The translations under genes were made by a program, and so were the position numbers. The notes beneath the pieces were generated by a model. It made no database searches. It had not been told where the DNA came from and saw nothing but the letters and a program-made list of their open reading frames with translations. From contig NC_054746.1 of assembly GCF_018143015.1 (NCBI RefSeq), positions 28,237,129 through 28,301,128 of the forward strand: DNA of 64,000 nucleotides, read 5' to 3'. Below are positions 16,313 to 61,436 of the stretch, in pieces. The DNA is from Lytechinus variegatus. Taxonomy: Eukaryota; Echinodermata; Echinoidea; Temnopleuroida; Toxopneustidae. The number at the start of each line of letters is the position of its first letter. Within the stretch, counting starts at the first letter, position 1.

Positions 16313-17120
16313 TATCAAGGAAAAGAGAGAGTCTTTTGACCTTAAACTGAATCTTGTCGACAAAATGAGCTATAATTCTGACATTATTACATATTATTTG
16401 TTTTGTTTTTCATCATTATTAGGTATATTTTTTATCATTGATATGATGAAACTCAACAATTTTCTTGCCTTAAAAATTTCAATTAGTGAGTGATGAAAGG
16501 ATTTATTTTGGCCAGTTCGTTAGTAGAACAGCGCTTCGCATTCATACCCAATGATTTTTAATGTAAACACCAAATGTGCACTGCTATTAACTCACTGAAA
16601 TAGATAAGTTCGAAATAGATAAGTTCGGAATCTCGGAATCACGAAATATTACTTCAAATTTGCATTTTCTTTGGTTCACTGGTACAGTAAATTATAAAAC
16701 TACGTTTTTAAGTGAGACGATATACATGGATACTATGAAACAATCTGGATTCAGCAAAAGGAAACAAACATAAGGTGTTGGATATATAACTCACTACATG
16801 GAAATATATGGATTACGACTAGACGCCACAATATTGTAGTCCCACATACTATCAGAGGCGGACTACGAACTATTGATCACGATCTATACAACGTAAGTTC
16901 TTGACTAAAAAATCGTACATCTAAATTTTCTTGCACGTGCCGAAACCAAATGGAACAAATATAGCACACAATCTCGATCATCTTTCATCATGTTAAATCT
17001 GAAAATGAACGAATGCTCTGGGTCATCGGGCAATGATTCTTTTCGTTATAAACTGCCCAAATACTAAAACTAGTTTATTATCGGCAGTTGAATATCTTCT
17101 AAAATCCTACATGACGGAAG

Positions 17121-18525: not shown

Positions 18526-18555
18526 ATAAAGAAAAACAATTAACACTCCAAACTC

Positions 18556-21658: not shown

Positions 21659-24600
21659 CTGCATTACAAAAGAACAAAAATACAGCATTGATGAACAGGT
21701 AGGAGATGTGCAGATGAAAAGAGGACGAATTATATAATAATTTCATTGAAAGATTTTTTTACGAGGACAATATTAAATGAATATGTCCGCAAATAGAAGG
21801 GTGTGGTGGTGAATCTGTTACACTCCATCCCAAAATTATAGTACTACTATTTTGATACTAATTTTCGCCACATCCCGCTTGGAAAAAAATATCTGATCCT
21901 TTACTATCAATATCAAGAAAATGGAAAATGTCCTCGTTATCAGATATGTTGCTTCAGTCTCTGACAGATATATATTCTTATATATTTATATATATACATT
22001 TCATATTATTGCACCCCCGAGTTATGGGTACATTCATGCTTAGATTTGCTATTCAAATTGGCTTCCATTGCAGTATATGGCAGAAATAAATGGTTGGTCT
22101 ATGTTTACTCTGTGCTGAAATTTCCTTTCACTGTATACCGATTTTAAGAATGTTTTAAAAGAGTTGTGATACTTGTTTTGATAATATTTATTTAAGACAG
22201 ACATTGTTATTCACATTTTATCCCCCGGTCTACCCATTTCCCAACTAAATACCTGTAATAAAACCTGCTGATGTTCCACCAAGTCCGAAGAAGAATGAAA
22301 CAAGAGCAATGGCGAGACTTAAATGATCCGGGTTAAACAGCGTGTTCTTTGCGACGGTGAAAAATATAGCATCTTCTGCAAAAAAACACAATCCTTGCAA
22401 AAACGCCAATCCAGCTCGAATCCAATACTTCGACCCGATGAAATCCAAAAGAAACGGCAAAGTGACTGTGATTCCGGAAACTATGTAGATGTGAAAAGCG
22501 TCGACACCTTTTGCTACTAGTACGATAAATATTGTCCTGCCGAGGATACCCCCGATTCCAGCGATGGTCGAGAGAAACACAGCCTGAGATTCAGGGATAC
22601 CAAGTTGCTTCGCGTGGGGTACCAGGAAATACATCCAAGAATAGTAGGCATAGCTAAAGAGGTAAATAGTTAGGAGATTGAACAAGAACAACGGTTCTTT
22701 GAGAAGAAATGACCTATAAAAAGATTCATTTTGGTTCACGTCTGGTGAGAGATCAGAAGGACGGTTGATTTCGTCGTGAAACAGTGGTGCGGAACTTTGA
22801 TCAGTGCCACATTCCCCTACGACTTCTTCTTCAAGAGAGGAAAGTGATGCTGATCGCGCGATATCTGAAGTTACAGACGGACTTTGGTCTGACATGAAAT
22901 CTTTGACGTTCTTCTGCTCGTGGTCTAATTTTGAGTGTTCCGGGGTTTTCAAGGTCTGTTGAGTTTCTTGGTCATTCTCTACTAACATCTCGTCACCTTC
23001 AATGTGAGACGGGCGAGAGCCATGTCGCTGACTTTCATCAGGGTTCTCCAAGATCGGTTTTCGTATGGCCACAGCACACACAACCAGGTGCAGTGCGAGT
23101 CCGCCCAAGATGAGGAACGTTCCACAGTACCCATAGGCTTCAAAGGATCGTTCAGTTATGAATGGCAGAATCATTGTCCCAGCAGTATGACCGTAGAGAG
23201 ATATGGTGTTTATGACAACGAAATGATCGGGGAAGAAGTCGTTGACCACAAGCATGTAAGGCATGTACACACATGCTATGCCAGCACCTGTACGGGAGGT
23301 CAGATCAAACATGTTTCTATGAAATATTGGATATTTGTGGGGTATTTATCAATATCATGCCTATACAGCTCACTTATTTACCACGTAGGAATGTGACAAA
23401 AGTATTTGAAGCAAATGTGGACAGCAATATTTATATTTTTTTTATTTCGTTAATCGTACAGTACTTTTCGCGTTGGGTTATGTTTTCTTCAAAATAGTCG
23501 CGATTATATTATGCATATCGAGGACTGAGTTTGCGTAACCACAAATAGTCTTTATTTCTTATCATGATTTTGGTCAAGAAAATAAGTCATCTATTTCAAA
23601 GTAATGATAGTCAATGTTCATTCATTAACTATGCTTCAGACATTGTATCATACAGTGACCTGCATCCACACTGGCGGATCCGGGGGGGGGGCACTGGCCG
23701 GCTTTGCCACCCCCCCCCTTGAAAGCAAAATGAAGATTTGTAATGTAAAAGTGCCGTTAAAACAGAAGTTTGCCCCCCCCCCCTTGAAAGTGAAGACTTT
23801 TTTCTTGTCAATTTTTTCCTCGGAAAAATGCCCCCCCCCCCCTTTGGGAAAATCCTGGATCCGCCCCTGACTATCCATTGCTCTAAAAAAATATATATAG
23901 CATATCTTTGTACACGTATTTCAGACATGCATGCAATGAGTGAGCTTACATCATACCTGTCAGTGCCATTGACACGCCTGTAAGTACAGTGTTGGGAAGG
24001 AATCCTGAGAGTGCCAAAGACATGCCACTCATCGTGCCTCCAAACAAGGCTAATGGACGACGACCTACTCTCTTCAAAATCAAAGATATCATTGGACCTG
24101 AAAAGGAGGCAGAAGAAAATTGATTACTGAGATCAGAGATAAATAGCACTGTGAATATGAGCTGCAAAACTTCTGGACATAACGTTAACAATAGCATGCC
24201 AACAGCAGACCCGTAGCCAGGATTATTTTTCCGGGGAGTGGTGTCTGAATTATAAAGTAGACATTTTAGAGATTTGGATCTAGCTTTTGCCAACAGGGCT
24301 AGAAGGGCAAGGTATATTTTATCCACATTTTCCCCGATCGGCAGCTAAAACCTAACTAGATTTTTTTTATTACATCTTAACTTTTTCTTGCATGGATAAG
24401 GTATCTCATAAAGATAAATGAATAATACGAACACGAGCTCAAATTTTTCGACATGTAATGTATTTGGACCTGAAAATTATAAGAAATTTCCGTAATCATG
24501 ATGAATCACAAATAAACACTTCGAGGAAGAAGCTCGAGCAGAACATTTTAACATACTGACCTGAAAAGGGACCTGGTTTTATTTTGCAGCTGAAGATGAT

Positions 24601-25745: not shown

Positions 25746-26430
25746 TCACATCAGAAAGTATAGCTATGATTCGGAGTTTTGGACGCTCAGTTGCTTCTCA
25801 ATCGCCATACTACAGAAAATAACAAAGAAACCGAACGGAAGGGTGTCAAGAGTTGAAACAGCTAGCAGTTTTCAGATCATCGACTCTCCATCTAAACAAG
25901 AATAGTGCTCCATTTTACGATCCTTGAATAGTTAAATTGTATCGTCTCGAGCTCTCATCCATTCAAGTGTAGCGGTGGCACAATATTTCTTTTCTTTATT
26001 ATTATCATTTGACGCATGAACTGCAAATCTGTGGGAAATGAAGACAAACCATGGCCCGGTATAATCCTCCCCCTGTCACAAGATCTTTTCGCTCACACCA
26101 AGGAGCTTCCTTGCTAACACCTGAGGCTACCCTCAAAAGGCCCCAATCATCGATAATGGAAAACAGATCGTCAAATATACAAGACAAATTTTCTAAAGCA
26201 ACTATCAAAATACTTCGACATTCGACAAAGTGTCAGATCAGTGCCTTAATGCAGGTTTTGTCCAATTGTTATCACCGCTATCTGTTCCTGTCAGTGGACT
26301 GTTGCATGTGGACTACATTGGTGGATTAATTATTAACCATAATTTTGCTATATCACGCTTCTCATATGGTTAGGGAAGGATTAGGAAAAAGGCATGGGCG
26401 TCGGTTGGCCTTTTCCAGGGGGGAGGGTGA
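25746..26430. other. Upstream flank of the SLC16-like gene, no gene seen
   Basis: Presumed promoter side of the minus-strand transporter. A plus-strand open frame at 26051-26329 (92 codons) has ordinary composition but no domain or splice partner that I can recognise. Confidence 0.35.
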
Positions 26431-26439
26431 GGGCTCGGT

Positions 26440-26985
26440 GTAAAAATGGCAGAGGTAAAAATGGCAGAGGTAATAATGGCAGAGGTAAAAATGGCAGAGG
26501 TAAAAATGGCAGAGGTAATAATGGCAGAGGTAAAAATGGCAGAGGTAATAATGGCAGAGGTAAAAATGGCAGAGGTAATAATGGCAGAGGTAAAAATGGC
26601 AGAGGTAATAATGGCAGAGGTAAAAATGGCAGAGGTAATAATGGCAGAGGTAAAAATGGCAGAGGTAAAAATGGCAGAGGTAATAATGGCAGAGGTAAAA
26701 TTGGCAGAGGTAATAATGGCAGAGGTAAAAATGGCAGAGGTAAAAATGGCAGAGGTAATAATGGCAGAGGTAATAATGGCAGAGGTAAAAATGGCAGAGA
26801 TAATAATGGCAGAGGTAAAAATGGCAGAGGTAATAATGGCAGAGGTAAAAATGGCAGAGGTAATAATGGCAGAGGTAAAAATGGCAGAGGTAATAATGGC
26901 AGAGGTAAAAATGGCAGAGGTAATAATGGCAGAGGTAAAAATGGCAGAGGTCATAATGGGAGAGGTGAAAATGACAGCTCTAGGT
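26440..26985 (+). repeat. 15-bp minisatellite, about 36 units of GGTAAAAATGGCAGA / GGTAATAATGGCAGA
   Basis: Near-perfect tandem array with two alternating unit types (AAAAATGG and AATAATGG), so the higher-order unit is about 30 bp. Because 15 is a multiple of 3 and the unit has no stops, several frames stay open for ~200 codons (repeating AEVKM / AEVIM, NGRGK, or TSAIF on the other strand). These are artefacts of the repeat. Flanking units are diverged; central ones are nearly identical. Confidence 0.95.
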
Positions 26986-27354
26986 AAAATATGGCCAGCC
27001 TCAAACCCCGATGCAATGAATTGTCAAAAGCCCCCCCCCCCCATGTACATAGATTAAATTAGAAGTGCATGTCACGGTTAGGCATTTCATCATATCGTTA
27101 TGTCTTTATCGGCCTAACAATGCTATTTACGAATTCGTTGGAGGTGTAACGTGAAGGCTTTTTAAAAAGAATTCAAACGACAAATATTTTTTCATTCAAT
27201 TCATCAGGAGCAAAATGAAACTGCACTATTCTCATTCATCATTTTATAACATTTCTTTTTGTCTAAAGTTTATATCTAAAGTTTTGCCAGGTTTACCGTT
27301 ACAAAAAGGAGGAAGAGTAGACAAAGGGGGTATCTCAGTGTTCGCGACTACAAA

Positions 27355-44740: not shown

Positions 44741-47700
44741 GAAAACCTACTTGGTTCCTCTAACCCTGGCCACATAGCTTTACCCCTCACTCTTCCTCGT
44801 GGAGTTATCGTTGACGGTGAGACAGTTTACCATCTTATTTAGATCGCATAATAGCCGAGGCGCCAGTGAGCTAAGGATATCATGCAGTGATCATTATACC
44901 AAGCTACCCCGCCTCCTTATCATCTAACTCTTTATATGAAAGAAAGTCGTTTACTGTTTAGGTAGAAAACAGGTTTTGATTAATGTGTAATTTGTCAGAT
45001 ACCACGCGGGACAATTCGAGTGTTTGGATAAATCAATATATGTTTTCATAATAGACAGTATGGAAAGATGTTTGAGGAAACGATATTTCTTCCTGAGATC
45101 ATCATACCAATAAAACAAATTTTAGTTATTTCTCCATGCGGGTGATTCAAAGTACGAAACACTCTTTTAAATGTTCCCAGTTTGCAGATTAGTTGGGGGG
45201 GTCTTGTATAATTATTTAGAATATGTAGAAAAAAGCAGTAATTCAATAAGTTTTGTCAAAAAGAACCAAATTTCATAGTGTATAACTAAACAAAAAATAT
45301 ATTGAAGCTCATGCAAGCTCTGTTTCTATTTGAAAAGGACTCGCTCTGTTTCAGTAATTTGGTTCTAGTGGGCAAAGACAGTTGATGATGGAGGTAGATT
45401 GGGTCCACAATAAAAAGGAAATAAATCCACAAACGGTCGACTTTTGAAATTTGATTTTCTAGGGCAAAGGAGTAGTTATTACGGTCTTGTCTTTAGATAT
45501 CCCTTTAACTACCTTTTTGTTACTGCGATTTCTTCTAATACCAAGATAAATATTAACTTTTTTCCACAATGGACAAAGAATCAATCCCGGTAGTGCATGT
45601 ATTTGTAAAAACCAATGTCAGATTTAAACCATATAAACACATACAAATCATGGGGGGGGGGGGCTAAATGCCATCGATGTATCATAATAAAATTTGAATA
45701 GTTACAAATTGTGCTGCTCTGAAACTGAGTCATCGAATAAAACGCGTATCTCGGTTTAAAAGTTAAATGATTGACACTGTATTATTTCGCCTATTTAAAC
45801 CGCGTTGCACAACCATTTACTTTGCTGCAAGCACCTTCTAATTTGAGCTTGAATTATTTTCCCCTTTCAACGTTGTTTGAAGTTTAACTCTGGACTACCC
45901 TATAGGGCTCCTTTTTGAAATAAACAATGATGATGGGATCTTGTAAAGCGCCGGTATCCGCCTCAGCTGGGCGCTCATGGCGCTTGCTCAAAAATAGGAA
46001 CTATCTCACAAATTTCAATGTCTTCAAACAGTGCTTAGGATCATCATTCAGTTAAAGTACTGTCCTATAGTAATGCTACAATTTAGTTATTCTTGCAATA
46101 AGGTTGAAGTAGGGAACGGAAAGGTCTTCAGGTAAGACTCAAAAGTTGATTGGGACTCTGCTCTCCTGATAGATTGGGAAGGCTTTTCCACAGCTTCGAT
46201 CTATACTCTATCAGAAATAAGAGGCTCATTGAAAATGTGATACTTGAGGAAAGTAGAAGATTTAAGACATCGTGACAAATCTTGACACCGGGTATCCCGT
46301 CTCCCATGATGGATAGCGATCTACTTTTAAACGATTATTACCGGTTATCATTGCGATAATGTGTATCGGGTCAAGGTGAGAGTGATCATGGGGTACTAAT
46401 TAAATTTGGAGTGGTGTAGACTTGACGCCAACCGGACGCGTCGCAAGCCGGGCATCGTTTAGTTCACGAGAAAATAACATGTTATCTTGCATGCATTGAC
46501 CACCAAACTTTAAAATACAAACGCATTTAAATGTAATGGGAAGTATATTTTCATACGCCCGATTCTACAAACACTTAATGAAGAAAATGATTACATATAC
46601 ATGTCTTATAATTCATGACATCAAAGTCTTTTCATAAAAATCAGTATTACAAACTAAGAAATTAAGGTTCGTGTTTGCACTCTAAATGCAACACTACAGC
46701 AACACCTTCAATGGGGGTACATTCTATTTTTATACAATAGGTGAAAAGGTGTAAAAATTCATTTTTGTTCTTGTTTTAGCTTGAAAATGTTCATTTTTAG
46801 CCTAAAAATTGCGACATTGCAACTAAAAGTCTGCGTATAACTTCATGAATTAAAAAGGTGCAAACTTTATTGTAGCTATTATAACGACACAACTCAAGAT
46901 GCACAACAGCAACCGGTGGGGATGTAATTGTAAAGCAAACCCACATTTCTTAGTGTGCATAATACATAAAACATAATATACTATCACTAAATGAAAATTT
47001 CTACAGAGTAACAGAAGGGTACTAGGGTTGTAAAATCAAATATTAACGCTAAATGAGCTGTAATGGGATATACCTTAAACTTGTTCCAATCACATAAATG
47101 TCTTTTTTCGAGGGACTTGAAGAATGACGTCAATTTGTCTATCTTGAAAACACTTCAAATTAACTGCCGCTGGGGGCGCATGAGCACTATGTAGCCAACT
47201 CATGTTGGAGTCCATGCGTGTCTGAAGCTCTTGTAACTTCTCTCAAACTATTTCACTTACTTTGAGGGCATTATAGTTATTCAGATCACGGCACAACCAT
47301 TATCGATTACCCCCTTCACACTTGAAGAGGGTATCTTTTATCGAGATCGAGGGAAAACGAACAAAACATCCGAATGGAGAAAGGGGTTTGTAACCATTTA
47401 GAAAACAGCAAATAATTTTCCCCCCTCAAAATAGTCAAATTTCGAAAACAACACAAGCAACAAGGGGAATGTACCGTTACAAAATATTCAGCGATTTTCA
47501 CTACCAAATTCCTCTGCGTCAACTAGATACAACGAATTCGGCAGATTATAACAATAGTAAATGAAAATCCCTGAGTTTTTTGTTCCCCCCGATGAGGAGT
47601 TTTGGGAAAATTATCACCCCGGCACACTCACATTAAGCTATACATAGAAAAAAAAGATGTCGATAATGTGTCAGTCGGAATATAATCATTATGAAGAGAA

Positions 47701-47884: not shown

Positions 47885-49504
47885 TCATCGTAATAGTGGT
47901 GTATCTGAGGATATACTTGTATCCCATTCGTCCGAGTCTCCGGAAATAGAACCAGTTTCCAAATCAAGAGAGCTGCTTTCCGATGATGACGTTGACGATA
48001 TGGTTTCCTCGGTATCTGAACTGCCGCTATACGACGTTTCGCTTTCACTAGATTCAACAATATTATTATTTCTGTTCCTCGACCGTTTCATCTTGGTACC
48101 ACCTCGTTTTACAGGTGACCTACCTTTCCCCGCCTTTGCTGAGCCTTTCTTCCATTTGGGGGCACTTTTGGTCTTTCCCATGGATTTTTGCCTACTTTTC
48201 ATGCTTTTCGTCGGGCTTCTCTTAGGACTTCTCTTAGGACTTTTCTTGGGACTTCTCTTAGAACTTCTCTGGGGGCTCCTCTTTGGACTTTTCATTGGTT
48301 TTCGCTTTACAGATTTCGATTTAGGGCTTGTCTTGGACTTGGTGGGGCTCCTCGATTTAGGACTTGCCTTGGACTGTCTCGTTGAAGCTGATTTAGTCTG
48401 CTTCGTTTTAGCACTTCCTTTCTTCTTGCTCGGGCTGGCACTTCCCCCTCGTTTTGGAGATGACTTCACACTTTTCTTGGGGCTCTGTTTTGGTGCTGAC
48501 TTTTTAGGGGTACTAGTTTTTGGTTGATTGCTTCCAGCTTTCTTTGATGGAGGTTTGTCAGGTCTCGGAGGACCCTTTTTGCCTGCCTTCGTTTTTCCAC
48601 CCGGAGATGATTGCGATGGCGGTTTGCTGGGTCTAGGCGGTGCTTGTTTCTTTGGAGAAGCTTTCTTGCTAGATGGTGGGCCGTCTGGTCTTTTGGGCGG
48701 ACCTGTAGCTGGGCGTGACGGAGGAGCTCCTTTGGGCCTTTGAGGTGGAGGGGCTTCTGGTCTCTTTGGTGGAGGACCGCCAGGTCTTTTAGGTGGAGGA
48801 CCACTTGGAAGTGCAGGAGGCATCGGAGCATCTGGTGGACCACTTGGAAGCATGGGAGGCAACGGCGCATCGGGAGCTGTATCATAAAAATCCGCCATGC
48901 CCCCTGGAGCATATGCTTGCATGCTGTCATAAAAGTCGTCTATTGGTGGAGGGGCATATGCTGGAATATTCTCATAAAGATCTTCCTCTGCCGTAGGGAC
49001 ATAAGCTGGAATGTCGTCATAGATATGTTCTTCGTCGCGGCGAATCGGTTCTTCGTAAGGGGACTCACTTTCGTACTGATTAATGTTTTCATAGATTGGT
49101 TCACTCTCGTAAAGCTTAATGTTTTCGTAGATTGGCTCACTCCCGTACTGACCATCGTTCTCATATGGATTGTAGCTTTTTGTCTGATTAGAGGCATATG
49201 CAGTAACGGGCTCATCAAATTCTTCATCAAATGTCGAATCATCTAATAAAGTGTCGTACCCTTCTTCAGCATCCAAGTCATGATCTTCAAAATCTTCCAT
49301 GGATCCTCCTAGGCCACCTTTATCTTTTCCAGAAGGAACATCTCCGCCACCTTTCTTCGGTTTTGGGCCGTCTCCTTTTGGCGGTGGAGGTGGTCCGTCT
49401 CCCCCTGGGCATAAGAATCCTGGTGTAGGAGCCTCCGGGTCACCCTCGGCTATGGCACCAGCTATTGAGGTCTGAAGGTAACGGGCAAGCAGGAGAGCCA
49501 ACAC
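47885..49504 (-). CDS. PRPH2-like: Peripherin-like A terminal exon 3 with long tail
   Basis: 1620 nt after acceptor CCTGTTTCAG. It opens with VLALLLARYLQTS (end of TM4) and runs uninterrupted for 539 codons. The tail has four Y-x-N sites (PYEND, two IYENI, LYENI) and many other Tyr in acidic context. PPPKRP and PPRPSKPP repeats follow, then blocks such as SPKRSPKRSPTKS, and finally SESETSYSGSSDTEE to DTPLLR. Low-complexity translations on the opposite strand over this exon are shadows. Confidence 0.85.
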   Translation of the reverse strand: MLALLLARYLQTSIAGAIAEGDPEAPTPGFLCPGGDGPPPPPKGDGPKPKKGGGDVPSGKDKGGLGGSMEDFEDHDLDAEEGYDTLLDDSTFDEEFDEPVTAYASNQTKSYNPYENDGQYGSEPIYENIKLYESEPIYENINQYESESPYEEPIRRDEEHIYDDIPAYVPTAEEDLYENIPAYAPPPIDDFYDSMQAYAPGGMADFYDTAPDAPLPPMLPSGPPDAPMPPALPSGPPPKRPGGPPPKRPEAPPPQRPKGAPPSRPATGPPKRPDGPPSSKKASPKKQAPPRPSKPPSQSSPGGKTKAGKKGPPRPDKPPSKKAGSNQPKTSTPKKSAPKQSPKKSVKSSPKRGGSASPSKKKGSAKTKQTKSASTRQSKASPKSRSPTKSKTSPKSKSVKRKPMKSPKRSPQRSSKRSPKKSPKRSPKRSPTKSMKSRQKSMGKTKSAPKWKKGSAKAGKGRSPVKRGGTKMKRSRNRNNNIVESSESETSYSGSSDTEETISSTSSSESSSLDLETGSISGDSDEWDTSISSDTPLLR

Positions 49505-52500
49505 CTGAAACAGGGTATAAAGACAGCGTCTGATTAGTTAAGGGTACGAATTTCTCCGCCCGAATGTGACGATCGTGGATGTTATGTTCTAAGGCCCGTT
49601 TCATAAAGGACTTGCAACTGTTGTAACTTTGCAATAATGACAACTACCATGGTAACAGGACTCTGCAGCCAATCATGGTAACTTTTTTAAATATTTATGA
49701 AGAAAAACAGTTGGACCTACGTGAAGCTGACCCTCTAACAAAATCACTTTAAATTAGTTTGTCTTATAAAGTATAGCAAAATTACAACAGTTGCAAGTCC
49801 TTTATGAAGACACTCTCAGCCCCCCCCCCCCCCCCCCTCCTCCTTGGATGCCATCAAACGTGACTCTCATTTATTCAACTTTATTTCTCAGTAACTTGCA
49901 ATAATGACAACTACAGGATTCAGCAGCCAATCAGAATCAAGGTTACCATGGTAAATTACAACAGTTGCAAGTCCTTTATGAAGCGGGTCCCAGATCATTT
50001 TATAGTTACTCAACTTCATTTCGCTCTCACAAGTATGGTGGTTCGGCTGAAGAAAGACAAACGAAGGCGTTTTTCCATTGCATAACAAAAAGAAGCACAC
50101 ATGAAGATGCATGTTCAGACAAGTTGTAAATTCGAGCAAGAAGGCGATTTGAATAATATAAATTTAATTCAATTGGAAGAATCATAATTTCGGTATTGAA
50201 GAATTGTTTTGATAATTTCACAAAGAAGAAATTTGAGTTTCCTTTATGTGTTCTTCAATCCTTAAAATTTTGGAAATCTAAAACCGCAATACACGGGGAG
50301 GGGTGCCTGACACCAAACCCAAATCCAACTTTTATAGAACAGAGAATTGCTGACAATAGTAAAAAAAATTAGGTTATTGGTGCTACTTACTGTGTGAATT
50401 CATTTATTTGATACTGTTGTGTATACAGTGCGTATCAAAAAAAAGTTTACACTTAGAAAAAATCCTTTAAAATTATATATTTGTAATATCCAGGCGATTT
50501 TTCCACTTTTTAGCATTGGTACAGATCCATTTAAGCAAATGACGATATAACTGTCGAAATATATTTCCGCTTGAGTGAGCACCACTTACTTTTGAAAAGT
50601 TGGTGAAAAATGACTTGCGCAGAACTTTGAAATAGTTATGAGAATAAAAGTAGACCTTAATCATGAAGAACACGTGGAAATTAGTTAGTAAAATTGATTT
50701 GAAGATATCTTTTACCTTTTTAAACTTGTTTCCTTGCCCAAACACTTCGAAGAGTGCATTGCGCCCCACCCCACTCCCCCACACACCGAGTCCATCGTGA
50801 CGATATTTGCTTTACACTGAGCTGTGATTTACATGAAATGGCTTAGGCTTGATTTTCATTTTGTTAATCATTGCCAAGCTTGGGAAAAGTGTGGAGAAAC
50901 AAGTATTAAATGAAAAATGAAATGTAAACCAACTTTAAATGATAAAAACTTAGTGAAAAATGCTGGAGATGTCTGATATAAACTTTTGTTCAGATTCAGT
51001 TATGTCCTCAGATCCAGCTGGCACAAAAAGGGTAAAGGTTGTGCTTACTAAGTGTTGAAATTTCAAATTTGGGCGGCAAAATTGTTACAAAATGCTTGAA
51101 TGTATCCGTTTTATGTCAATTGGCTAAAAGTGCTAGGGAAATTTATGAGAAATGCTTAAGTATGATTTCGCCCTTTCCCCTTGACACAGCGTGAAAACAA
51201 GCATTTCTGCGCAAACAGATTTCTGCGAGCTTTACAAAAATGGACAGTGCTCACTCAAGTGTAACATTCTGTCAAAATTTTTACTTTCATTGGATAGATG
51301 AGCCCCAAACCCATAATTATATGTGAAAAAATTACCCACATGTTGTATATTTGTTAATTCCCATGGCTTTTTCAAAGTGTAAACTTTTTTTTGATACGCA
51401 CTGTATATTCATTAAGAAAGCACAGGGAGCCTGATTCTTCACAAAACTTAAGATTATGGAAATTACCATGCAAACCATGATGCTATTATGGGTAAGGGCC
51501 ATGTTATTACAACGATGGTAAATTAAATATTCCCATACTTCTTTTACTTAGGAATTGGCGCCATTTTCAGACACTCTCAGCCCCCCTCCCCCTCCTCCTC
51601 CTCCTTGGATGCCATCAAACGTGACTCTCATTTAATTCATTCAACTTTATTTCTCAGTAACTTCAATGAAGGTTCATACAACAAAATGAAATATATACTA
51701 TTTTCAAGAAACATTAATTATTGTTAAACTCTAAATCAAACAATTTGAACTGACCAGTCAGCTGACCGGTAAATGATATATAAATTAAAGTTATTGAAAT
51801 ATATATTTTCTATTAAACAATACTTATTATTTTAGTAACGAATGGTAACTTTTTGAATATTTATGAAGAAAAACAGTTGGACCTACGTGAAGCTGACACT
51901 CTCACAAAGTCACTTTAAATTAGTTTGTCTTATAAAGTATACCATCCGTCGTTTTTCAGGAGGGGTTGAATAATGTCAACACATACCTGTACTCCTAGCA
52001 AACCAAACGATGCTGCTCCCAGCTGGTTGAATTTCGATCCAAAGTACTCCATCAGTTGTTCCTTACAGCCAACAGGGTGGAGAGTGAGGTCGGTCTGGTA
52101 GTCGTAGTTGTAGTGGATGTCGTTATCCTGAACTTGATGGTGGATGCAAGGGCGTGGTGATTTCGGTCGACAGCACGAGAACGGAACATCATCGGTTAGA
52201 TACTTGCCCGTCGTCATCTTACTGCCATCAACCAAAGAAATATATTACGACTTCTAGATATTACAGGTAATTGAAATTATTTTGTTTGTCTGTCTGTTTG
52301 TTTTGTCAACACTTTGTATGAGTCATAATCGTCCTTAAATCATGTGAGCTTGAATGGGAATGGAATCTAGGCCTATATCCAAATAAAGATCGTCAGTATT
52401 CAGTGACTAGGCCCATCAATAGCGATAATTCTTTTTTTTTTTCAAGTAAAGAGTTAAATTATCTTTGGAGTCAAAGGACCCTTTAATATCCATTTCTTCA

Positions 52501-53584
52501 CATATTGTCTTCTGGATAATACGTCGGATAATACTTTGTCGAATAAAACATTCGATAATTGCTTTCATTAAAAAATCCCCCTGATTATCAAGAATAAAAT
52601 CAAAGGCTTTAGCCCATATTTTTCTCGGTGTTACCTGAGAATTTGTAATAAACCTTACTATTAAAAAAATGTGTTGATTTCGTCCAATTCCCCAGACTTG
52701 ATGGGCAATTCTATTCTGCTTTCTTTAAATTTGCCAATCCGTTAATTCGTAACTAATTTGAATTACTTTGTATTATGTTTAAATTGAATTGAAATAAATC
52801 ATTGAAATAAAAATTTGAAAACCTCCTGAATTGGAATTCTTTATTATTAATAATAACCAATGTTGTCGACGGTCCCTATAGCTATTTCTTGAACTGTTAA
52901 AAACGATCTTATGAAAAAAATAGGGTTAGATAGCTTCCTCCAAAACATGTAAGCAGCAATTATTTTTTCATTATTAAATCTATTCATGTCTTGCCAGTGA
53001 TTATTAATCATATCATTTTACCTCTGTATTTTGCTGTTGGAGATATCCAAGAAATTGTTGTTAATCCACTGAACGTCGAACCAGTCTTCATATCCATTAT
53101 TACCACAGCATGTATTTTTAATTTGGAGCATGTCGATGTCATATTTCAGAGTGCTGTCTTCGTGGTATTTCCCCATCGCCTTGATGAGACCATTATGAAA
53201 AGACCTCGAGAGATGGTGTCGGTGAGCAAAACACATGCTTCCCGCTGTGAGCAAGGCGATGAGAACGACAATGAGAAGCACAAGGATCACCATCAGCAGA
53301 CTGCGAAGCCGTTTTCTATTCGCGGGATTCCCGACGTCGAAAGCGACCTTGCTGCCGGCGAGGTTAACCAATGCGGTGAGTCCTCCGACGACCATGAGGA
53401 CGATGGGAAGGACGTTGCCGTCGTATCCTTCGACTAAACTGACCTTAGACTGGAGAGTGAAACGGAGAAAGAATCCCACTGTGCAGAGTCCTACTGCGCC
53501 CAAGAGAGTGATGACGTGAAGGATAACGAGGAGTACGGCGATTGTCTGCCGTCCTCCTTCATTCAAATTGATTGCTAAAATCAT
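47885..53584 (-). CDS. PRPH2-like: Peripherin-2/ROM1-like tetraspanin A with giant cytoplasmic tail, 805 aa, 3 coding exons
   Basis: A four-TM protein of the family that shapes photoreceptor disc rims and other curved membranes. Coding exons are 53584-53022, 52221-51987 and 49504-47885. Intron phases are 2 and 0 and all splice sites are GT-AG. TM1-TM3 lie at about residues 14-42, 59-80 and 94-119. The large loop (about 120-252) has IDMLQIKNTCCGNNGYEDWF, DDVPFSCC, PRPC and VGC, six cysteines in the PRPH2 order. TM4 is followed by ARYLQTSIAGAIAEGDPE, as in PRPH2. Instead of ~60 tail residues there are ~525. Residues 335-476 are acidic with Tyr repeats, 477-586 Pro-rich, 587-744 Ser-Pro-Lys/Arg-rich, and 746-805 an acidic Ser tail ending DTPLLR. 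An OTX/CRX-like TAATCC lies about 75 bp upstream of the ATG. Tandem with gene B. Confidence 0.88.
49592..49991. mobile_element. Palindromic MITE(s) in gene A intron 2
   Basis: The left end GGCCCGTTTCATAAAGGACT is mirrored by AGTCCTTTATGAAGCGGGTCC at the right. A second right-end-like copy (GTTGCAAGTCCTTTATGAAG) sits inside at about 49791-49810, so two copies are nested or one is partly duplicated. Confidence 0.6.
49675..49895 (+). repeat. Duplicated intron segment, copy 1 of a rearranged pair
   Basis: Two blocks, TATTTATGAAGAAAAACAG with downstream sequence, and CTTGGATGCCATCAAACGTG with flanks, recur at 51840-51945 and 51570-51660 respectively, in swapped order. The copies are near identical, implying a recent duplication within intron 2. 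Confidence 0.6.
50426..51403 (-). mobile_element. Tc1/mariner-like non-autonomous element, copy 2 (978 bp), in gene A intron 2
   Basis: Ends CAGTGCGTATC and GATACGCACTG are perfect inverted repeats, flanked by TA (50424-50425, 51404-51405). Its sequence is the reverse complement of the element at 29887-30873 with scattered differences (identity looks about 90%, not computed). No transposase. Confidence 0.87.
51570..51950 (+). repeat. Duplicated intron segment, copy 2 with blocks in swapped order
   Basis: Holds the same two blocks as 49675-49895, here separated by ~170 bp of AT-rich sequence and in reverse order. It lies just 3' (in gene sense, upstream of the donor side) of exon 2. Confidence 0.6.
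51987..52221 (-). CDS. PRPH2-like: Peripherin-like A coding exon 2
   Basis: 235 nt between acceptor TTGATGGCAG and donor CAG/GTATGT, phase 2 to 0. Encodes the second half of the loop (GKYLTDDVPFSCC, PRPCIHHQ, VGC) and the start of TM4. Exactly as long as the gene B counterpart. Confidence 0.87.
53022..53584 (-). CDS. PRPH2-like: Peripherin-like A coding exon 1
   Basis: 563 nt from ATG (MILAINLNEGG) to donor CAGAG/GTAAAA, phase 2. Encodes TM1-TM3 and the first half of the large loop including the CCG motif and QWINNNFLDIS. Close in size to human PRPH2 exon 1 (581 coding nt). Confidence 0.87.
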
Positions 53585-54864: not shown

Positions 54865-55026
54865 TTATATCACGGCTCCAAGGATCATTGCCGTGATTGC
54901 TTTGAACAAAGTGACAAGAGGGAATTCTTCAAAGATCCATCCCTTGGCAGTTCTCTCGGGATTGCCACGATCCAGAGCATTGCAGATTGATGAATTCAAG
55001 TATTGGGCTGTCAGGAGGATGCTCAA
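54865..55026 (-). CDS. PRPH2-like: Peripherin-like B terminal coding exon 3 (short)
   Basis: 162 nt after a strong acceptor (CTCTTTTTTTCTCAG). Reads LSILLTAQYLNSSICNALDR and on to GWIFEEFP, stop TAA. It has no internal start codon in a useful place, so simple ATG-based searches miss it. Identified by phase 0 and by alignment of the QYLNSS segment with RYLQTS of gene A and PRPH2. Confidence 0.8.
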   Translation of the reverse strand: MSILLTAQYLNSSICNALDRGNPERTAKGWIFEEFPLVTLFKAITAMILGAVI

Positions 55027-57361
55027 CTGAGAAAAAAAGAGGAAGGGGTGAAATTAAGGATATTGAAGGATTTACAATTAGGCGGCGAAAGGTGGGGGTG
55101 AGAGGAGAGAAGATGTTGATGGTGATTAGTGGTGACGATGATGATGTTGACGAGGAGGATGATGATGAAGATGATGAAGACATTGTTAATAATGATGATG
55201 ATGACTGTGGTGATAAAACTATTGATGGTAATGATGATGGTGTATAGTGATGACGATGAAGATGATGAGGTTTTCGATGCAAATGGTGATGATAGTCATG
55301 ATGACGATAATGACGATAATGATGATGGTGGTGGTGGTGGTGGTGGTGATGGTGGTGGTGATGATGATGGTGATGGTGATGATGAAGATGAGGATGATGA
55401 TGATGATATAGAAATGTCAAAGTTATAGGTACGTTAATCATATTAATAGTAAGTGCAATAATCATGCAGCAGGACCCAGACTTATGGCAGTCCGAGTTTT
55501 TGTCGCTAATCGGTTGAGGCCAAGTTTAAATATTTGATATTCAGTGGCATTTGATGCATGGAATGTGCCATTGGTGACGGGTGACGGCTTGTATTTTAAT
55601 CTCAAGGCAATAGCGAAACCGCTAAGGAAGGTGTCTACTTTCATACTATAAAAAACTTAATACTGTAAAAACGCCATTCAAAAATGTGTATACAACTTTG
55701 TATCAGTTTAAACAGGTGTTTAAAATCCTAAATAACAATGTTCACTTTTTAATATATAATTCTCAATAAATTGAGCATGGTTATTTCAACTGTTAAATAA
55801 CTACTGTAAGGTCCATAGCATAGTAAAAAGCGTTGTGTAAAATTTTAAAGTGAGTTTTTACTGTGTATGCAAAAACAACAAACATGTATTGGGACCGCCT
55901 TTCATCGAGGAATATTGAAAGCTTGCAGGGCATGTGGAGGAAGATAGTATGCATTTTGGCAGTCTATTTTGAAAAGGTTCATGATAAGCACGTTTGCTGT
56001 GGATCCAATAAGACCTATCTGCAGACCTCACAGGTGCCTACAAGGGTGCCGATTTTTTGGCATCCAGAAGGATGCATAGTATTCCCCGCTCCTATGTGTG
56101 CATCCTTACGGATGCAAATCTTTAGGGTTTTCCTTTTCAAAGTTCCACCCTCTTTGGTGTTATTATGAAGCGTGTGACATTGAGCCAATATTTCTTAATA
56201 AGAAGGTTTCATTTTATCTTCACACACGACCTCCGCCATCTTACCTGTAGTCCGCAAAGACCCATCACACATCCACCGATTATATTGAGTTTTCTGTTGA
56301 AGAACTCCATGAGCCGATGTTTACAGCCAGTCTTATGAATGGTAAAACTAAGATCGAAGTTGTAGAGGTAGTGGGCATCGTTGTCGAGTACGTTGTGGTG
56401 AATACATGGTCGAATAGAGCGCGGATGGCAGCAAGAGAAAGGCGTATCATCGTTGAGGAATTCTGTAGATTCTGTTCCTCTGTAAGGGTATATAAAAGGG
56501 TCAGTAAGCCACATTAACGAAAAGAGAATGGAATCAGAATATATCGGCAATATTTGGAGCAAGAAAAATATCTAAAAAATAATGCGTCTAAAACGTAAAT
56601 CATATATACCACATGGGATTTTTCTAATATTTGAATCTTTGAATTTTTGGTTGGCAGAAAAACCTTTCTTGTTGGTGTTTATAAAAATCTTTTGAATCTG
56701 TATTCCAACTTCACAACATGGTACTCTGGCTAGGGCTATGTTTTGATTATACCAACCCGTCATCATCGTGTTCATCATCATGATGGGAATCTCGAGCAGG
56801 TCTCTTCGAGCCTTCGATATAATCATCATTAATCCACTGTATTCTGAACCAATCTTCATAGTTTTCGTTTCCACAACATCCAAAATCCAATTGGAGAGAA
56901 TCGATTTCCTCCTTGATTTCAATATCGTCCTTGTATCTCTTCATGGCGCTAGTGAGACCATTGTGAAATGATTTCTTCAACGAGTGACCGTGGATGAAGG
57001 TCATGGATCCTCCTATAAGTAACCCAAGGTCGACGATACAGAGGATGACCACCATAGCAAGCAATGCACTTCGGAGCTTTTCCCTCTTCCATGAGAATGA
57101 CGCCTCGTGGCCAATCTTGGCAACGACCGGGTTCATGAGCACGGTGATGCCACCGACGACCATGAGGGTGATTGGTAGTTGTTCGAAGTCATAACCTTCG
57201 ATGAGATTGACTTTGGCTCGGATGTGACTTCGTATGTAAAAGCCGATGCCGATGAGTAAGGTGCCACAGACGATACCGACGATGATTTGGATTATGAGGA
57301 ATGAGATGAGACGTTGCCGACACTCCTCACTTATGTGGCAGGGTAAGACCGCTTGCTTCAT
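54865..57361 (-). CDS. PRPH2-like: Peripherin-2/ROM1-like tetraspanin B, 333 aa, 3 coding exons
   Basis: Coding exons are 57361-56757, 56479-56245 and 55026-54865 (1002 nt), with intron phases 2 and 0 as in gene A and vertebrate PRPH2. Four TMs lie at about residues 20-43, 62-82, 98-122 and 265-290. The large loop has IDSLQLDFGCCGNENYEDWF, DDTPFSCC, IRPC and TGC: six cysteines, lacking the unpaired one of vertebrate peripherin-2. TM4 runs into AQYLNSSICNAL, matching the RYLQTS segment. The tail has GWIFEEFPLVTLFKAITAM, comparable with the PRPH2 GWLLEKS amphipathic helix that promotes membrane curvature. An extra Asp/His stretch (DSHHDDEHDDD) precedes intron 1. The exon 1 donor (GG/GTTGGT) is weak but is the only GT that keeps phase. 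Confidence 0.85.
55115..55430. repeat. GAT/GGT trinucleotide microsatellite in gene B intron 2
   Basis: Imperfect (GAT)n and (GGT)n runs. Open frames encode poly-Asp on one strand and poly-His on the other, which are artefacts. The array ends ~90 bp before the exon 3 acceptor. Confidence 0.9.
56245..56479 (-). CDS. PRPH2-like: Peripherin-like B coding exon 2
   Basis: 235 nt between acceptor ACCCTTACAG and donor CAG/GTAAGA, phase 2 to 0. Encodes TESTEFLNDDTPFSCC to the start of TM4 (GLCGLQ). Confidence 0.85.
56757..57361 (-). CDS. PRPH2-like: Peripherin-like B coding exon 1
   Basis: 605 nt, phase 2 end. Encodes TM1-TM3 and the first half of the large loop. ATG (MKQAVLPCHIS) is the first in frame. 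The 3' boundary is the least certain splice site of this gene. Confidence 0.75.
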
Positions 57362-57881: not shown

Positions 57882-57892
57882 AAGAATTTGAT
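57882..57892 (+). repeat. LINE target-site duplication, left
   Basis: AAGAATTTGAT, repeated exactly at 61437-61447 on the other side of the LINE. Confidence 0.85.
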
Positions 57893-60800
57893 TTCGTGTT
57901 ATTCTCACAAAATTCCCGGTCATTGAAAATCAACCTTTTGCAATGTTGAATGATGATGAGTTATACCATTTGTTTAGGCCGAATACTGAAACCCAACAGA
58001 AAAATTGCAACCTGCCGTATTTTGAAAACCTTGTATCCAAGGAAATGAATTTAGCTGTAGACTTAAACGATAATAATGACAATAATTATCACAGTTCAAA
58101 TTACTTTACCATAAATCAATTTAAATCTCCGGAAAAGTCAGCGAATACATTTTCAATCATGCACATGAACATAAGGAGCCTGAGCTGCAACTTCGATAAT
58201 TTACGTCTTTTAACGGATACATCTCCACAAACGAATTTGTCTGTAATCGCGTTAACCGAGACATGGTTATCTCAGGAATCTAATACTTTATACTCACTTC
58301 CCGGTTATACCTTTGTAGAAAATAATAGAGCTAATAGGAGAGGAGGAGGGGTGGGTCTCTATATTAATGAAAAAATAGAATATTTCATACATACAGATCT
58401 TAATTGTATGAATGAATTTGCTGAATCTATCGTTATTGAAATTCAAATCCAAAAATCTAAAAACATTATTATAGCGGTATTTTATAGACCTCCCAACTCC
58501 AACTCACATATTTTTTTAGAATACTTACAAGATTTTCTACGAAATCCAGTTTTTATAAATAAAGATTGTTATATAGCAGGAGATTTCAACATAGACATAT
58601 CTAATACTAACCATAATGCCTCACAAGAATTTTTGGACATAATGATATCCTCATCTTTTTTACCATTAATTACAAAACCAACCCGGGTTACTAACCAATC
58701 TGCAACCCTTATTGATAATATTTTTTGTAATGTTACTCCTTTACCCGAGTCGGGAATTATTTTATCTGATATCTCAGACCATTTTCCGATATTTTCAAGA
58801 GTCCCGTTTAGGTTAACAAAAAATCATTCCCCGCAGCATAAGTTCCGAAAAGTAACGCCAAATAATATAGCGAGGTTGAAAGAAGGTCTAGAAGACACCG
58901 ACTGGTCTGAGGTGTTCGGTTCGCAAGATACCAATACAGCATATAATATATTCATTAAAAATTTAACCACACACTTAGATAGACACGTACCACTAGTCAA
59001 TAAATGCTACAATTATAAAAAGAGTCCAAGACTTCCTTGGATATCGAAATCAATATTACGGTCAATAAATCGTAAAAACAACTTATACTATGCCGACAAA
59101 ATAAATCGTTCAGAGAAGTCGCATCGCAAATACACCATGTATAAAAATACCCTCACAAAAATTTTGCGCAGCGAAAAACGAAAATACTTCACAAACCAAT
59201 TAATTCATTTCAAGCATGATATAAGAAAAACATGGCAAACTATAAACAATGCCTTGAATAAGTATAGCGTAAAATCGAACATAAAAACAATAAAACACAA
59301 TGATATCGAAATTCATGATTCTGCTCGGATAGCTGACATATTCAATCAATATTTTTCACAGATCGGAAAAAATCTAGCCGACAATATACCATTAACACAA
59401 AAGAAATTTACCGATTTCACTCACCGACCAAATCCTAATTCTCTTTTTCTATTACCAGTACATAGGAATGAAATAATAGATACAGTGAATAACTTAAAAA
59501 ACAAAAAGAGTTGTGGTCATGATGGTATTGATAATATTTTATTAAAAAATGTCATTGAATATATTGTTGATCCTTTAGTACACATATTTAATCTATCCTT
59601 AATTAATGGCGTCGTGCCCGACAATATGAAAATATCTAAGGTAATACCAGTGTACAAAAAAGGAGATAAGAATAATGTATGTAACTATAGACCGATATCT
59701 TTATTGCCTACTCTATCAAAGATTCTAGAAAGAGTGATATATACAAGACTATTAAAATTTTTGAATAAATATAACATAATTTCTGATTTTCAATTTGGAT
59801 TCCGCCAAAAGCATAGTACTTCTCATGCCACTCTTTCATTTGTTGAAAAAATCACAAAAGCTATTGATAACTTTGAACATACAGTAGGTGTTTTTCTGGA
59901 CCTCTCCAAGGCCTTTGACACTATAAATCATGAAATACTACTATACAAACTTGAAAATTACGGAATCAGAGGAAAGGCCTTGGAGTGGTTCAGGAATTAC
60001 CTAATAAACCGTAAACAGTTTGTTAACATAAACGAACAAAATTCTTCTCCACTAAAGGTTAATTGGGGTGTTCCTCAAGGCAGCATACTGGGCCCACTTT
60101 TATTTTCGATCTATATAAATGACATTCACAATTCTTCGATAATGTTATCTTATATTCTTTTTGCAGATGATTCAAATGTACTTTATTCTCATCCTAATCC
60201 CGATATTTTAGTCAATATATTGAACATTGAACTGGAGAAGCTAGTACAATGGATAAGATCTAATAAATTGTCAATCAATGTAAAAAAAACGAAATGTATG
60301 CTTTTCAGCAATTCTTTAGATAAATTACCATACGATATCAAATTGGACAACGCTGACATTGAAGTGGTCACTACAACAAAATTTTTAGGTCTGATAGTAG
60401 ACAACAATTTATCTTGGAAAACACACATTGATTTTATATGCCGTACAATTTCACGCAATATTGGTGTTGTAAATAAGGTCAAGTTTTTTCTTCCAACTTC
60501 CTCCCTAAAAATGCTTTATTCAACATTAATTTTACCCTATCTAAACTACGGGATAATTGTCTGGGGAAACACACATACATCTTATCTAGAACGAATATTA
60601 CTTTTACAGAAAAAGGCATTGCGCGTTATTTTTAATATGTCCTGGAGATCCCACACAGACCAATTGTTTATTGACAATAAAATCTTAAAAGTAAAAACAT
60701 TATATCAATATAACTTGGGTCAATTTATGTATCAATTAAATAATAATATGCTACCATCAATCTTTGATTCTTCATTTAATAAAAACAAAACTATTCATAA

Positions 60801-61436
60801 ATATCCTACACGTCAATCCGAGGAATTTCATTTTCCTCTACCCCGGACAATTCTTGCCAAATCCATCTTCACTTTCGAAGGCCCTCGACTTTGGGGCACT
60901 CTTGATAATACTATCAAAGATTCCCCAAGCCTAAATTCTTTTAAATTTAAGTTGAAAAAGTTTCTCCAAGATACTCGTTAGTTTGTTTAACTCTTCATCA
61001 CTCATACATTATACTTTTCATATATACTCAGCACTACGAGCTGTGAAATATGATATTTTTCGTTTTCCTGTTGATCCGTAAATTCGCTGTGAGTGTTGGG
61101 GCAAGAATCTGGAGACCACTGATCTTGCTATTTTCTCTCATTTCTATTTCTTTCTTTTTATTCTTTTAAACTATTCATTCAGATAGTTTTACGTTCAAAT
61201 TTCTACCATGTTGTGTTTGTGTTTTGTTTATATTCTTCATACGTATGTTATAGGAGGCTGCATCCTACAAGCTTCGCTTTTTAGCAGCCTCCTCCGTTTC
61301 CGACCTGTTATCTTGAGTATTATACATAATAAGTTTCTTTGTTTTATTGATTATAATTATATCAAGATGTATGTAACAAAACTATTGTAAATGTAAATGA
61401 TTGTTGGAAATGGAAAAAAATAAATGAAATGAAATG
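57893..61436 (+). mobile_element. Apparently intact CR1/Jockey-group LINE, 3544 bp
   Basis: Bounded by an exact 11-bp target duplication. A ~50-bp leader precedes a 1012-codon ORF with endonuclease and reverse transcriptase. It is followed by a ~455-bp 3'UTR with a 10-bp-stem hairpin (AGGAGGCTGC 61252-61261, GCAGCCTCCT 61284-61293) and an (AAATGA)n-like tail (AAATGAAATGAAATGA). No ORF1 is present: either the family has a single ORF or this copy is slightly 5'-truncated. The lack of stops and the exact duplication mean a recent insertion. Confidence 0.88.
57943..60981 (+). CDS. LINE endonuclease/reverse transcriptase, 1012 aa
   Basis: The EEP (APE-like) endonuclease spans about residues 69-290, with MHMNIRSL, LTETWLS (E106), GDFNID (from 213) and SDHFPIF (from 278), the metal and catalytic blocks. 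A linker follows. The reverse transcriptase spans about 480-770, with NYRPISLLPTLSKILER, FLDLSKAFDTINHEILL, WGVPQGSILGPLLFSIYIND and the active-site FADD at 740-743 (a variant of YADD). A C-terminal region has LNYGIIVWGNT, LQKKALRVIF and FTFEGPRLWGTLDN, as usual for CR1/Jockey-group proteins. It acts in target-primed retrotransposition. All key residues seen are intact. Confidence 0.92.
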   Translation: MLNDDELYHLFRPNTETQQKNCNLPYFENLVSKEMNLAVDLNDNNDNNYHSSNYFTINQFKSPEKSANTFSIMHMNIRSLSCNFDNLRLLTDTSPQTNLSVIALTETWLSQESNTLYSLPGYTFVENNRANRRGGGVGLYINEKIEYFIHTDLNCMNEFAESIVIEIQIQKSKNIIIAVFYRPPNSNSHIFLEYLQDFLRNPVFINKDCYIAGDFNIDISNTNHNASQEFLDIMISSSFLPLITKPTRVTNQSATLIDNIFCNVTPLPESGIILSDISDHFPIFSRVPFRLTKNHSPQHKFRKVTPNNIARLKEGLEDTDWSEVFGSQDTNTAYNIFIKNLTTHLDRHVPLVNKCYNYKKSPRLPWISKSILRSINRKNNLYYADKINRSEKSHRKYTMYKNTLTKILRSEKRKYFTNQLIHFKHDIRKTWQTINNALNKYSVKSNIKTIKHNDIEIHDSARIADIFNQYFSQIGKNLADNIPLTQKKFTDFTHRPNPNSLFLLPVHRNEIIDTVNNLKNKKSCGHDGIDNILLKNVIEYIVDPLVHIFNLSLINGVVPDNMKISKVIPVYKKGDKNNVCNYRPISLLPTLSKILERVIYTRLLKFLNKYNIISDFQFGFRQKHSTSHATLSFVEKITKAIDNFEHTVGVFLDLSKAFDTINHEILLYKLENYGIRGKALEWFRNYLINRKQFVNINEQNSSPLKVNWGVPQGSILGPLLFSIYINDIHNSSIMLSYILFADDSNVLYSHPNPDILVNILNIELEKLVQWIRSNKLSINVKKTKCMLFSNSLDKLPYDIKLDNADIEVVTTTKFLGLIVDNNLSWKTHIDFICRTISRNIGVVNKVKFFLPTSSLKMLYSTLILPYLNYGIIVWGNTHTSYLERILLLQKKALRVIFNMSWRSHTDQLFIDNKILKVKTLYQYNLGQFMYQLNNNMLPSIFDSSFNKNKTIHKYPTRQSEEFHFPLPRTILAKSIFTFEGPRLWGTLDNTIKDSPSLNSFKFKLKKFLQDTR

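Follow-up and report, generated by a model that had tools for sequence, protein, structure and literature searches.

In the window analysed here, a 64,000-nt stretch of Lytechinus variegatus DNA, a three-exon gene on the minus strand (gene A) was found to encode a tetraspanin of the RDS lineage (peripherin/ROM1-like) with a 525-residue tail. This family is known and the identity of the protein is firm; its sequence and those of its relatives show a long-tailed peripherin form that has a shared tyrosine motif and a tail that may act as a signalling dock. Among the matches listed from the open-licence literature on peripherin and EPIYA, no title or abstract start described a long-tailed peripherin. 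We assign a probability of about 0.5 to the reading that the gene A product is a curvature tetraspanin without the disulfide link of PRPH2 that would double as a disordered phosphotyrosine scaffold.

The exons of gene A (Table 1) were spliced in phases 2 and 0 to give an 805-aa protein. The exon 1 donor reads AG/GTAAAATG, exon 2 lies between the acceptor GGCAG/TAAG and the donor ACAG/GTATGTG, and the exon 3 acceptor is TTTCAG/GTGTTG. In the alignment, the start residue matches the start of the Diadema protein. Exon 3 encodes 539 residues ahead of its stop, 525 of them past the RYLQTS boundary, as the first-pass annotation had proposed for this exon, and the reconstructed protein is identical to the L. 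variegatus entry P0001 in NCBI/UniRef (100% identity over 100%). From the base composition of exon 3, the chance of 540 open codons was computed as ~3e-12, and the remaining five frames hold 11 to 44 stops each; a chance open frame was therefore rejected.

The NCBI name of P0001 is "trithorax group protein osa-like". An Osa protein is expected to carry an Osa/ARID-type domain. The Pfam scan of gene A revealed no Osa-type domain, and Tetraspanin alone passed the cut-off, indicating that the name of this database protein is a misnomer. The name, together with a third-position GC of 0.59 in the body vs 0.37 in the tail, would fit an artefact in which exon 3 is part of another gene through a gene-model or assembly error. 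We consider this extremely improbable: TM4 and the tail share one uninterrupted exon, Tetraspanin is the sole domain above the cut-off, and a like join of body and long tail occurs in six other species, with the same charge order in four of them (the other echinoderms). Because of these comparable joins, an assembly or fusion artefact was rejected.

The assignment of the body, which the first-pass annotation had also placed in the peripherin/ROM1 lineage from its CCG/FSCC/PRPC loop and RYLQTS boundary, agreed with several lines of evidence. The Pfam Tetraspanin domain (PF00335) covers residues 16-276 (E 4.3e-30). Against solved structures, the body scored 194 bits with PRPH2 and 120 bits with ROM1, followed by 39 bits with a CD53 chimera, the best tetraspanin outside PRPH2/ROM1 within that structure set. 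The alignment of the body, with its CCG/FSCC/PRPC loop, to PRPH2 runs through TM4, and the four membrane spans were taken from this homology. EC2 contains exactly six cysteines, in columns common to the family, for which the available text of PMC2965184 gives the RDS-lineage pattern CCG..PxxCC..C..GC. RDS/ROM genes have a frame-breaking intron 4d and an ancient phase-0 intron 6, according to the accessible portion of PMC2650405; the phases 2 and 0 of gene A fit these introns, the comparison being by phase and not by exact human PRPH2 position. Gene A thus resembles PRPH2 and ROM1 in its tetraspanin body, six EC2 cysteines, PFSCC/RPC loop, RYLQTS boundary, and intron phases. In contrast, the vertebrate-type tails measure 51-71 residues (6 rows), close to the previously stated value of about 60, vs 525 in gene A. 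A Gly/Pro-rich stretch occupies the place where PRPH2 carries an amphipathic helix, and a crude helix scan with a Pro/Gly filter retained no 14-residue stretch among the first 60 residues of the tail. Furthermore, gene A has an EPIYxN array, whereas vertebrate PRPH2/ROM1 do not.

Table 1. Features of gene A and gene B in the window (all on the minus strand)
Feature	Position	Strand	Remarks
Gene A exon 1	53022..53584	-	ATG, TM1-TM3, first part of EC2; residues 1-187 plus 2 nt
Gene A exon 2	51987..52221	-	235 nt; FSCC/PRPC part of EC2, start of TM4
Gene A exon 3	47885..49504	-	rest of TM4, RYLQTS boundary, entire 525-residue tail, stop codon 47885-47887
Tail zone 1, Gly/Pro-rich linker	49268..49462	-	residues 281-345; site of PRPH2 amphipathic helix
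Tail zone 2, acidic tyrosine array	48905..49267	-	residues 346-466; net -29, 16 Tyr
EPIYENI motif 1 (Y392)	49118..49138	-	
EPIYENI motif 2 (Y404)	49082..49102	-	with motif 1 fits ITAM-type spacing YxxI-x8-YxxI
EDLYENI (Y443)	48965..48985	-	divergent further copy
Tail zone 3, proline zone	48563..48904	-	residues 467-580; 40 Pro, PPxRP-type repeats
Tail zone 4, Lys/Ser/Pro basic zone	48089..48562	-	residues 581-738; net +55, SPKR/KSP repeats
Tail zone 5	47888..48088	-	RNRNNNI box, then acidic serine-rich end with terminal TPLLR
RNRNNNI box	48059-48079	-	residues 742-748, in tail zone 5
Candidate AATAAA poly(A) signal	46866..46871	-	~1 kb past gene A stop; consensus match only
Gene B, whole	57361..54865	-	directly upstream of gene A
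Gene B exon 1	56757..57361	-	
Gene B exon 2	56245..56479	-	235 nt; length and phases equal gene A exon 2
Gene B exon 3	54865..55026	-	TM4 and short hydrophobic tail

The tail of gene A is low in hydrophobic residues (10% VILMFWC) and charge-zoned, a composition from which it is probably disordered. TPLL is terminal in both echinoid proteins and internal in the starfish tail. An acidic dileucine/DxxLL sorting signal at the C terminus was considered and not pressed; the residue preceding TP is D, E or L.

The first-pass annotation, which knew of no described peripherin with such a tail, overstated its singularity: four other echinoderm and two gastropod proteins are long-tailed, and the gene A product itself had a misnamed NCBI entry. 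With gene A, the comparison covered seven long-tailed proteins from two echinoids, one starfish, two crinoids, and two gastropods, with tails of 210-525 residues (232 to 525 in the echinoderms). The relatives, from Diadema, Acanthaster, Antedon, Anneissia, Littorina, and Babylonia, share the peripherin body with gene A and differ from it in their shorter tails (210-406); their database names are uncharacterized, peripherin-2-like, or photoreceptor outer segment membrane glycoprotein 2-like. The Babylonia sequence, P0006, belongs to an isoform and begins past the first membrane spans. The motif [DE]P[ILV]YxN was present in 7/7 long tails vs 0/10 short-tailed relatives (P0010, a fragment with 3 tail residues, was left out of this count and of both trees), and it arose in 0 to 0.11% of residue-shuffled long tails (20,000 shuffles each). 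The Diadema tail has three EPIYA (as EPIYANI) plus one EPVYA, the Lytechinus tail has EPIYE twice, and the starfish version of the tyrosine motif reads YENW. All five echinoderm tails contain a [KR]NR[NH]?NN box and 10-14% VILMFWC; when each is divided into fifths, the first is acidic and the third and fourth are strongly basic. In both gastropod tails, the NRNN box was absent, as was the long basic zone. The two echinoid tails gave 11 and 7 PPxRP-type matches, and none occurred in the remaining five long tails; SH3 docking would therefore not be family-wide.

Search candidates were picked by shared 5-mers and length, and the tail words EPIYE and PIYEN were among those shared, so that long motif-bearing relatives were favoured; body words nevertheless outnumbered tail words in 6/6 long-tailed relatives. 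Two of the protein searches scored the best 7999 candidates by word sharing, so that a set free of amphioxus, hemichordate, tunicate, or further urchin relatives says little about whether such relatives exist.

The similarity of whole tails to that of gene A was assessed against shuffles in which residues were permuted within 15-residue blocks, 300 times per tail. The Lytechinus and Diadema tails scored 500 against a best shuffled score of 264, and none of the 300 shuffles reached the observed value, which supports whole-tail homology clearly for Diadema. The observed score was reached by 1 shuffle for Antedon, 3 for Littorina, and 13 for Anneissia, and homology is weakly suggested for these three. 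For Babylonia (68/300) and Acanthaster (155/300), whole-tail alignable homology was not borne out. Given this control, the kinship of tails beyond the echinoids rests on short motifs and zone order.

The starfish tail has kept its composition while its sequence is no longer alignable with gene A, which would be expected if the tail acted by bulk and charge only, through membrane bending, membrane spacing, or attachment to tubulin or acidic lipid, with the tyrosine motif incidental or a YxxI-type sorting signal. The scarcity of hydrophobic residues in gene A, the strong charge zones, the SPKR/KSP repeats, and the variation of echinoderm tail length while charge order holds also point this way, and disordered domains have been described as curvature sensors in the available text of PMC6175956. 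We regard this explanation as rather unlikely, as the retention of EPIYxN in every long tail and of the NRNN box in every echinoderm tail exceeds the needs of bulk, and the starfish YENW is incompatible with a YxxI/L sorting signal.

The paired EPIYxNI sites of Lytechinus raise a further alternative, that they form an ITAM docking a tandem-SH2 Syk-family kinase in an immunoreceptor-like manner. Compared with the ITAM consensus, an acidic-xx-YxxI-x7/8-YxxI arrangement was found in Lytechinus, Diadema, and Littorina, and residue shuffles of these tails yielded the spacing in 0.02-0.22% of cases (20,000). However, the pair occurs in only 3/7 long tails, being absent from the starfish, both crinoids, and Babylonia, and tandem duplication of a single site (a 36-nt repeat) creates the spacing by itself. 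An ITAM is thus very unlikely.

EPIYA is a phosphotyrosine-docking motif that also occurs in bacterial effectors. Under the phosphotyrosine-scaffold reading, the gene A body would dimerise, possibly with the gene B product as PRPH2 does with ROM1, and the dimer would sit in curved membrane with its tail extending into the cytoplasm. Phosphorylation of the EPIYxN tyrosines by kinases of the Src or Abl type would then recruit SH2 proteins; in echinoids, the proline zone might recruit SH3 proteins. The basic zone could hold acidic membrane or cytoskeleton under the control of Ser-Pro phosphorylation, and the tail bulk itself may favour outward bending and space neighbouring membranes. Precedents come from the available text on two proteins, p140Cap, whose EPLYA is phosphorylated by Abl and binds the Csk SH2 domain (PMC3561454), and Pragmin/SgK223, whose EPIYA is phosphorylated by Src-family kinases and likewise binds Csk SH2 (PMC3593179). 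Both share with gene A an E-P-[IL]-Y site that has an aliphatic residue at -1 and an acidic one at -3; unlike gene A, they are not tetraspanins, and they have EPIYA/EPLYA whereas the candidate phosphotyrosine site of Lytechinus is EPIYE (Diadema alone has EPIYA). That the Lytechinus motif is EPIYE and not EPIYA counts against the scaffold reading, as do the poor alignment of tails beyond the echinoids outside the short motifs and the difference in third-position GC between body and tail. The first-pass annotation had suggested a scaffold linking rims to cytoskeleton or signalling; its scaffold part gains from EPIY[EA]N, the NRNN-type box, and, in echinoids, the PPxRP-rich zone, but its "rims" lack support, the linking cysteine C150 being absent.

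Vertebrate PRPH2 is a blindness gene; its product has a short tail and relies on a single linking cysteine for higher-order assembly. The C150 column was a gap in 12/12 invertebrate rows and Cys in 6/6 vertebrate-type rows, and the 11 invertebrate rows that span EC2 have exactly six structural cysteines there and no extra one. Gene A lacks both the free EC2 cysteine that links PRPH2 dimers (C150/C153) and its 5-residue stretch, and thus should not build the disulfide-linked chains of PRPH2. As far as the accessible portions of the sources go, C150S blocks PRPH2 oligomers and some rim-like contacts in PRPH2 are noncovalent (PMC9645710), and C150S PRPH2 still reaches rims and discs enclose (PMC7198881); the missing C150 is therefore compatible with rim-like assembly. 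Neither this absence nor gene B had appeared in the first-pass annotation.

Gene B is a short-tailed tandem paralogue of gene A. Its protein has 333 aa, with 98% identity to a Lytechinus pictus protein, and is 41% identical to gene A over 307 aligned positions; the two genes agree in intron phases and in the length of exon 2. Unlike that of gene A, the gene B tail is short and hydrophobic (39 residues, as measured in the equal-length L. pictus orthologue) and lacks EPIYxN. Two trees, both carrying long-branch warnings, bear on the origin of the tail. On the 17-row tree, 2 changes account for the seven long-tailed rows, and a single origin is also compatible. In the second tree, with 15 rows after Mytilus and Babylonia were dropped, genes A and B group as a weakly supported echinoid pair (66/93), and the short tail of gene B would then be a loss, provided the root lies outside; holding the five long-tailed echinoderms together without gene B was weakly disfavoured (p-AU 0.042). 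It is conceivable, though we think it unlikely, that the long EPIYxN tail is the ancestral peripherin state, predating the echinoderm-mollusc split, that vertebrate rim peripherin lost the tail and gained C150, and that gene B lost its tail independently after tandem duplication. This scenario is weakened by the fact that tails outside echinoids hardly align beyond the motifs.

Taken together, the analysis brings to light a misnamed database protein and candidate EPIYA-type arrays in an animal membrane protein, and the origin of the disc-rim protein becomes a concrete sequence question of tail loss and C150 gain. If the tail is ancestral, a signalling tetraspanin would have become a self-polymerising rim protein in vertebrates, and EPIYA-type docking arrays would be native and ancient in an animal membrane protein.

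Gene A, the peripherin/ROM1-type tetraspanin under study, was assembled from three exons with GT/AG splice sites and introns of phases 2 and 0, giving a product of 805 residues. Exon 3 contributed 539 of these, running from the last part of TM4 through the RYLQTS boundary into a tail of 525 residues, which confirms the very long tail reported in the first-pass annotation. The chance of this open frame was approximately 3e-12 from base composition, and the other five frames of the exon contained 11 to 44 stops each, indicating that the frame did not arise by chance. The gene A protein was letter-for-letter identical to P0001 (NCBI/UniRef, Lytechinus variegatus). The database name of this entry, "trithorax group protein osa-like", found no support, as the sole Pfam match above the cut-off was Tetraspanin. 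Intron 2 contained two duplications (copies 95% identical) together with inverted pairs, which may be short mobile elements.

Coordinates of gene A, gene B and other features in the window
Feature	Position	Strand	Remark
Gene A exon 1	53584..53022	minus	
Gene A exon 2	52221..51987	minus	
Gene A exon 3	49504..47885	minus	
Gene A intron 2, 95-nt duplication	49684-49778 and 51850-51944		
Gene A intron 2, 66-nt duplication	49808-49873 and 51569-51634		
Gene B exon 1	57361..56757	minus	
Gene B exon 2	56479..56245	minus	235 nt, as in gene A
Gene B exon 3	55026..54865	minus	
Gene B intron 2, trinucleotide repeat	55126-55430		GAT/ATC-type
Endonuclease/reverse transcriptase frame	57892-60978	plus	1029 residues
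Second reverse-transcriptase region	18701-19471	plus	neighbouring frames 17115-20316
Tandem array	26362-27057		units read NGRGK or MAEVK
Transporter-looking frames	22245-24344	minus	

In a comparison with solved-structure sequences, the gene A body scored 194 bits with PRPH2, 120 with ROM1, and 39 or less with other tetraspanins. PRPH2 was likewise the first match for the Littorina protein and for the L. pictus orthologue of gene B, the tandem short-tailed paralogue. The six cysteines of the large extracellular loop (EC2) were kept in every covering row (18/18 for two columns, 17/17 for four). The intron phases fit the RDS/ROM gene structure described in PMC2650405, and RDS orthologues in invertebrate deuterostomes are reported in PMC2965184.

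Immediately upstream of gene A, in the same orientation, gene B encodes 333 residues (41% identity to gene A over 307 aligned positions) with a short, hydrophobic tail. Its full-length relatives were from L. pictus (98% identity), S. purpuratus (79%) and D. setosum (62%); the fourth match was a fragment. A long trinucleotide repeat precedes its last exon, and an unbroken frame approximately 0.5 kb from its start, in divergent orientation to gene B, is, judged by its endonuclease and reverse transcriptase domains, a LINE-type element. Elsewhere in the window, the second reverse-transcriptase region looks broken, with RVT_1 in one of several separate frames, and the tandem array, with several open frames spread over both strands, is a repeat and probably not a gene. 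The hydrophobic frames look like a transporter, perhaps of monocarboxylate type; a 366-residue piece had no Pfam match at 0.001.

The annotation was aware of no described peripherin with a tail of this kind. The PRPH2-lineage body with a long tail stood, but six relatives were also long-tailed: Diadema antillarum (343 residues), Acanthaster (406), Antedon (269), Anneissia (232), Littorina (210) and Babylonia (253). Ten relatives (three gene B orthologues, six vertebrate-type rows and Mytilus) had tails of 35-71 residues. The motif [DE]P[ILV]YxN occurred in 7/7 long tails, gene A included, and 0/10 short tails, leaving out the tailless fragment P0010, and in at most 0.11% of shuffled long tails. 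It read EPIYENI twice in gene A (plus EDLYENI), EPVYANI and three EPIYANI in Diadema, EPIYENW in the starfish Acanthaster, DPIYENL and DPIYENM in the crinoids, and EPIYENI in the gastropods. A [KR]NR[NH]?NN box was present in 5/5 echinoderm and 0/2 gastropod tails, and net charge, taken by fifths, started acidic and was strongly basic in fifths three and four in 5/5 echinoderms. Relatives were selected on 5-mers in common, and in the first search only proteins of 0.55 to 1.75 times 805 residues were admitted. Body words outnumbered tail words in 6/6 relatives, yet this selection favours the motif and length counts. Under shuffling within 15-residue blocks (300 shuffles), the Diadema tail aligned with that of gene A far above chance (score 500, best shuffle 264). 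Alignment was weak for Antedon, Littorina and Anneissia (1, 3 and 13 shuffles equally good), and the Acanthaster and Babylonia tails did not align (155 and 68). Since only Diadema was clear, the case for a single tail beyond echinoids comes from short motifs and zone order.

C150 (ROM1 C153), the free cysteine linking PRPH2 dimers (PMC9645710), was found with its five-residue stretch in 6/6 vertebrate-type rows, five fishes among them, and in 0/12 invertebrate rows; all 11 invertebrate rows spanning EC2 had exactly six EC2 cysteines. In mice, C150S PRPH2 is still found at rims and does not stop discs from enclosing, but homozygous outer segments turn into whorls (PMC7198881). Some PRPH2-ROM1 contacts are also noncovalent (PMC9645710), so rim-like assembly without C150 is possible. 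PRPH2 has an amphipathic helix after TM4, whereas the Gly/Pro-rich start of the gene A tail has no evident counterpart.

The peripherin-type body, intron phases, tail zones and motif conservation of gene A are read directly from sequence. Gene A would form a membrane-shaping dimer without disulfide chains, and its tail may be a disordered, phosphorylated docking array. Among the closest worked precedents are p140Cap EPLYA, with Abl and the Csk SH2 domain (PMC3561454), and Pragmin EPIYA, with Src-family kinases and Csk (PMC3593179). The latter review also describes EPxYAxV as under-represented among mammalian proteins; an EPIYA array in a tetraspanin from an animal is therefore remarkable, although the array is EPIYANI, not EPxYAxV. 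The basic SPKR/KSP and PPxRP zones suggest cytoskeletal or lipid contact and, in echinoids only, SH3 docking.

The trees were too thin to settle the history of the tail. Genes A and B formed an echinoid pair (support 66/93), and forcing all long-tailed echinoderms together was weakly disfavoured (p-AU 0.042); if the pair is real, gene B lost its tail. The same motif occurs in two gastropods, so the tail may be ancient and have been lost in vertebrates. Gene A offers a testable link to the origin of the vertebrate rim protein.
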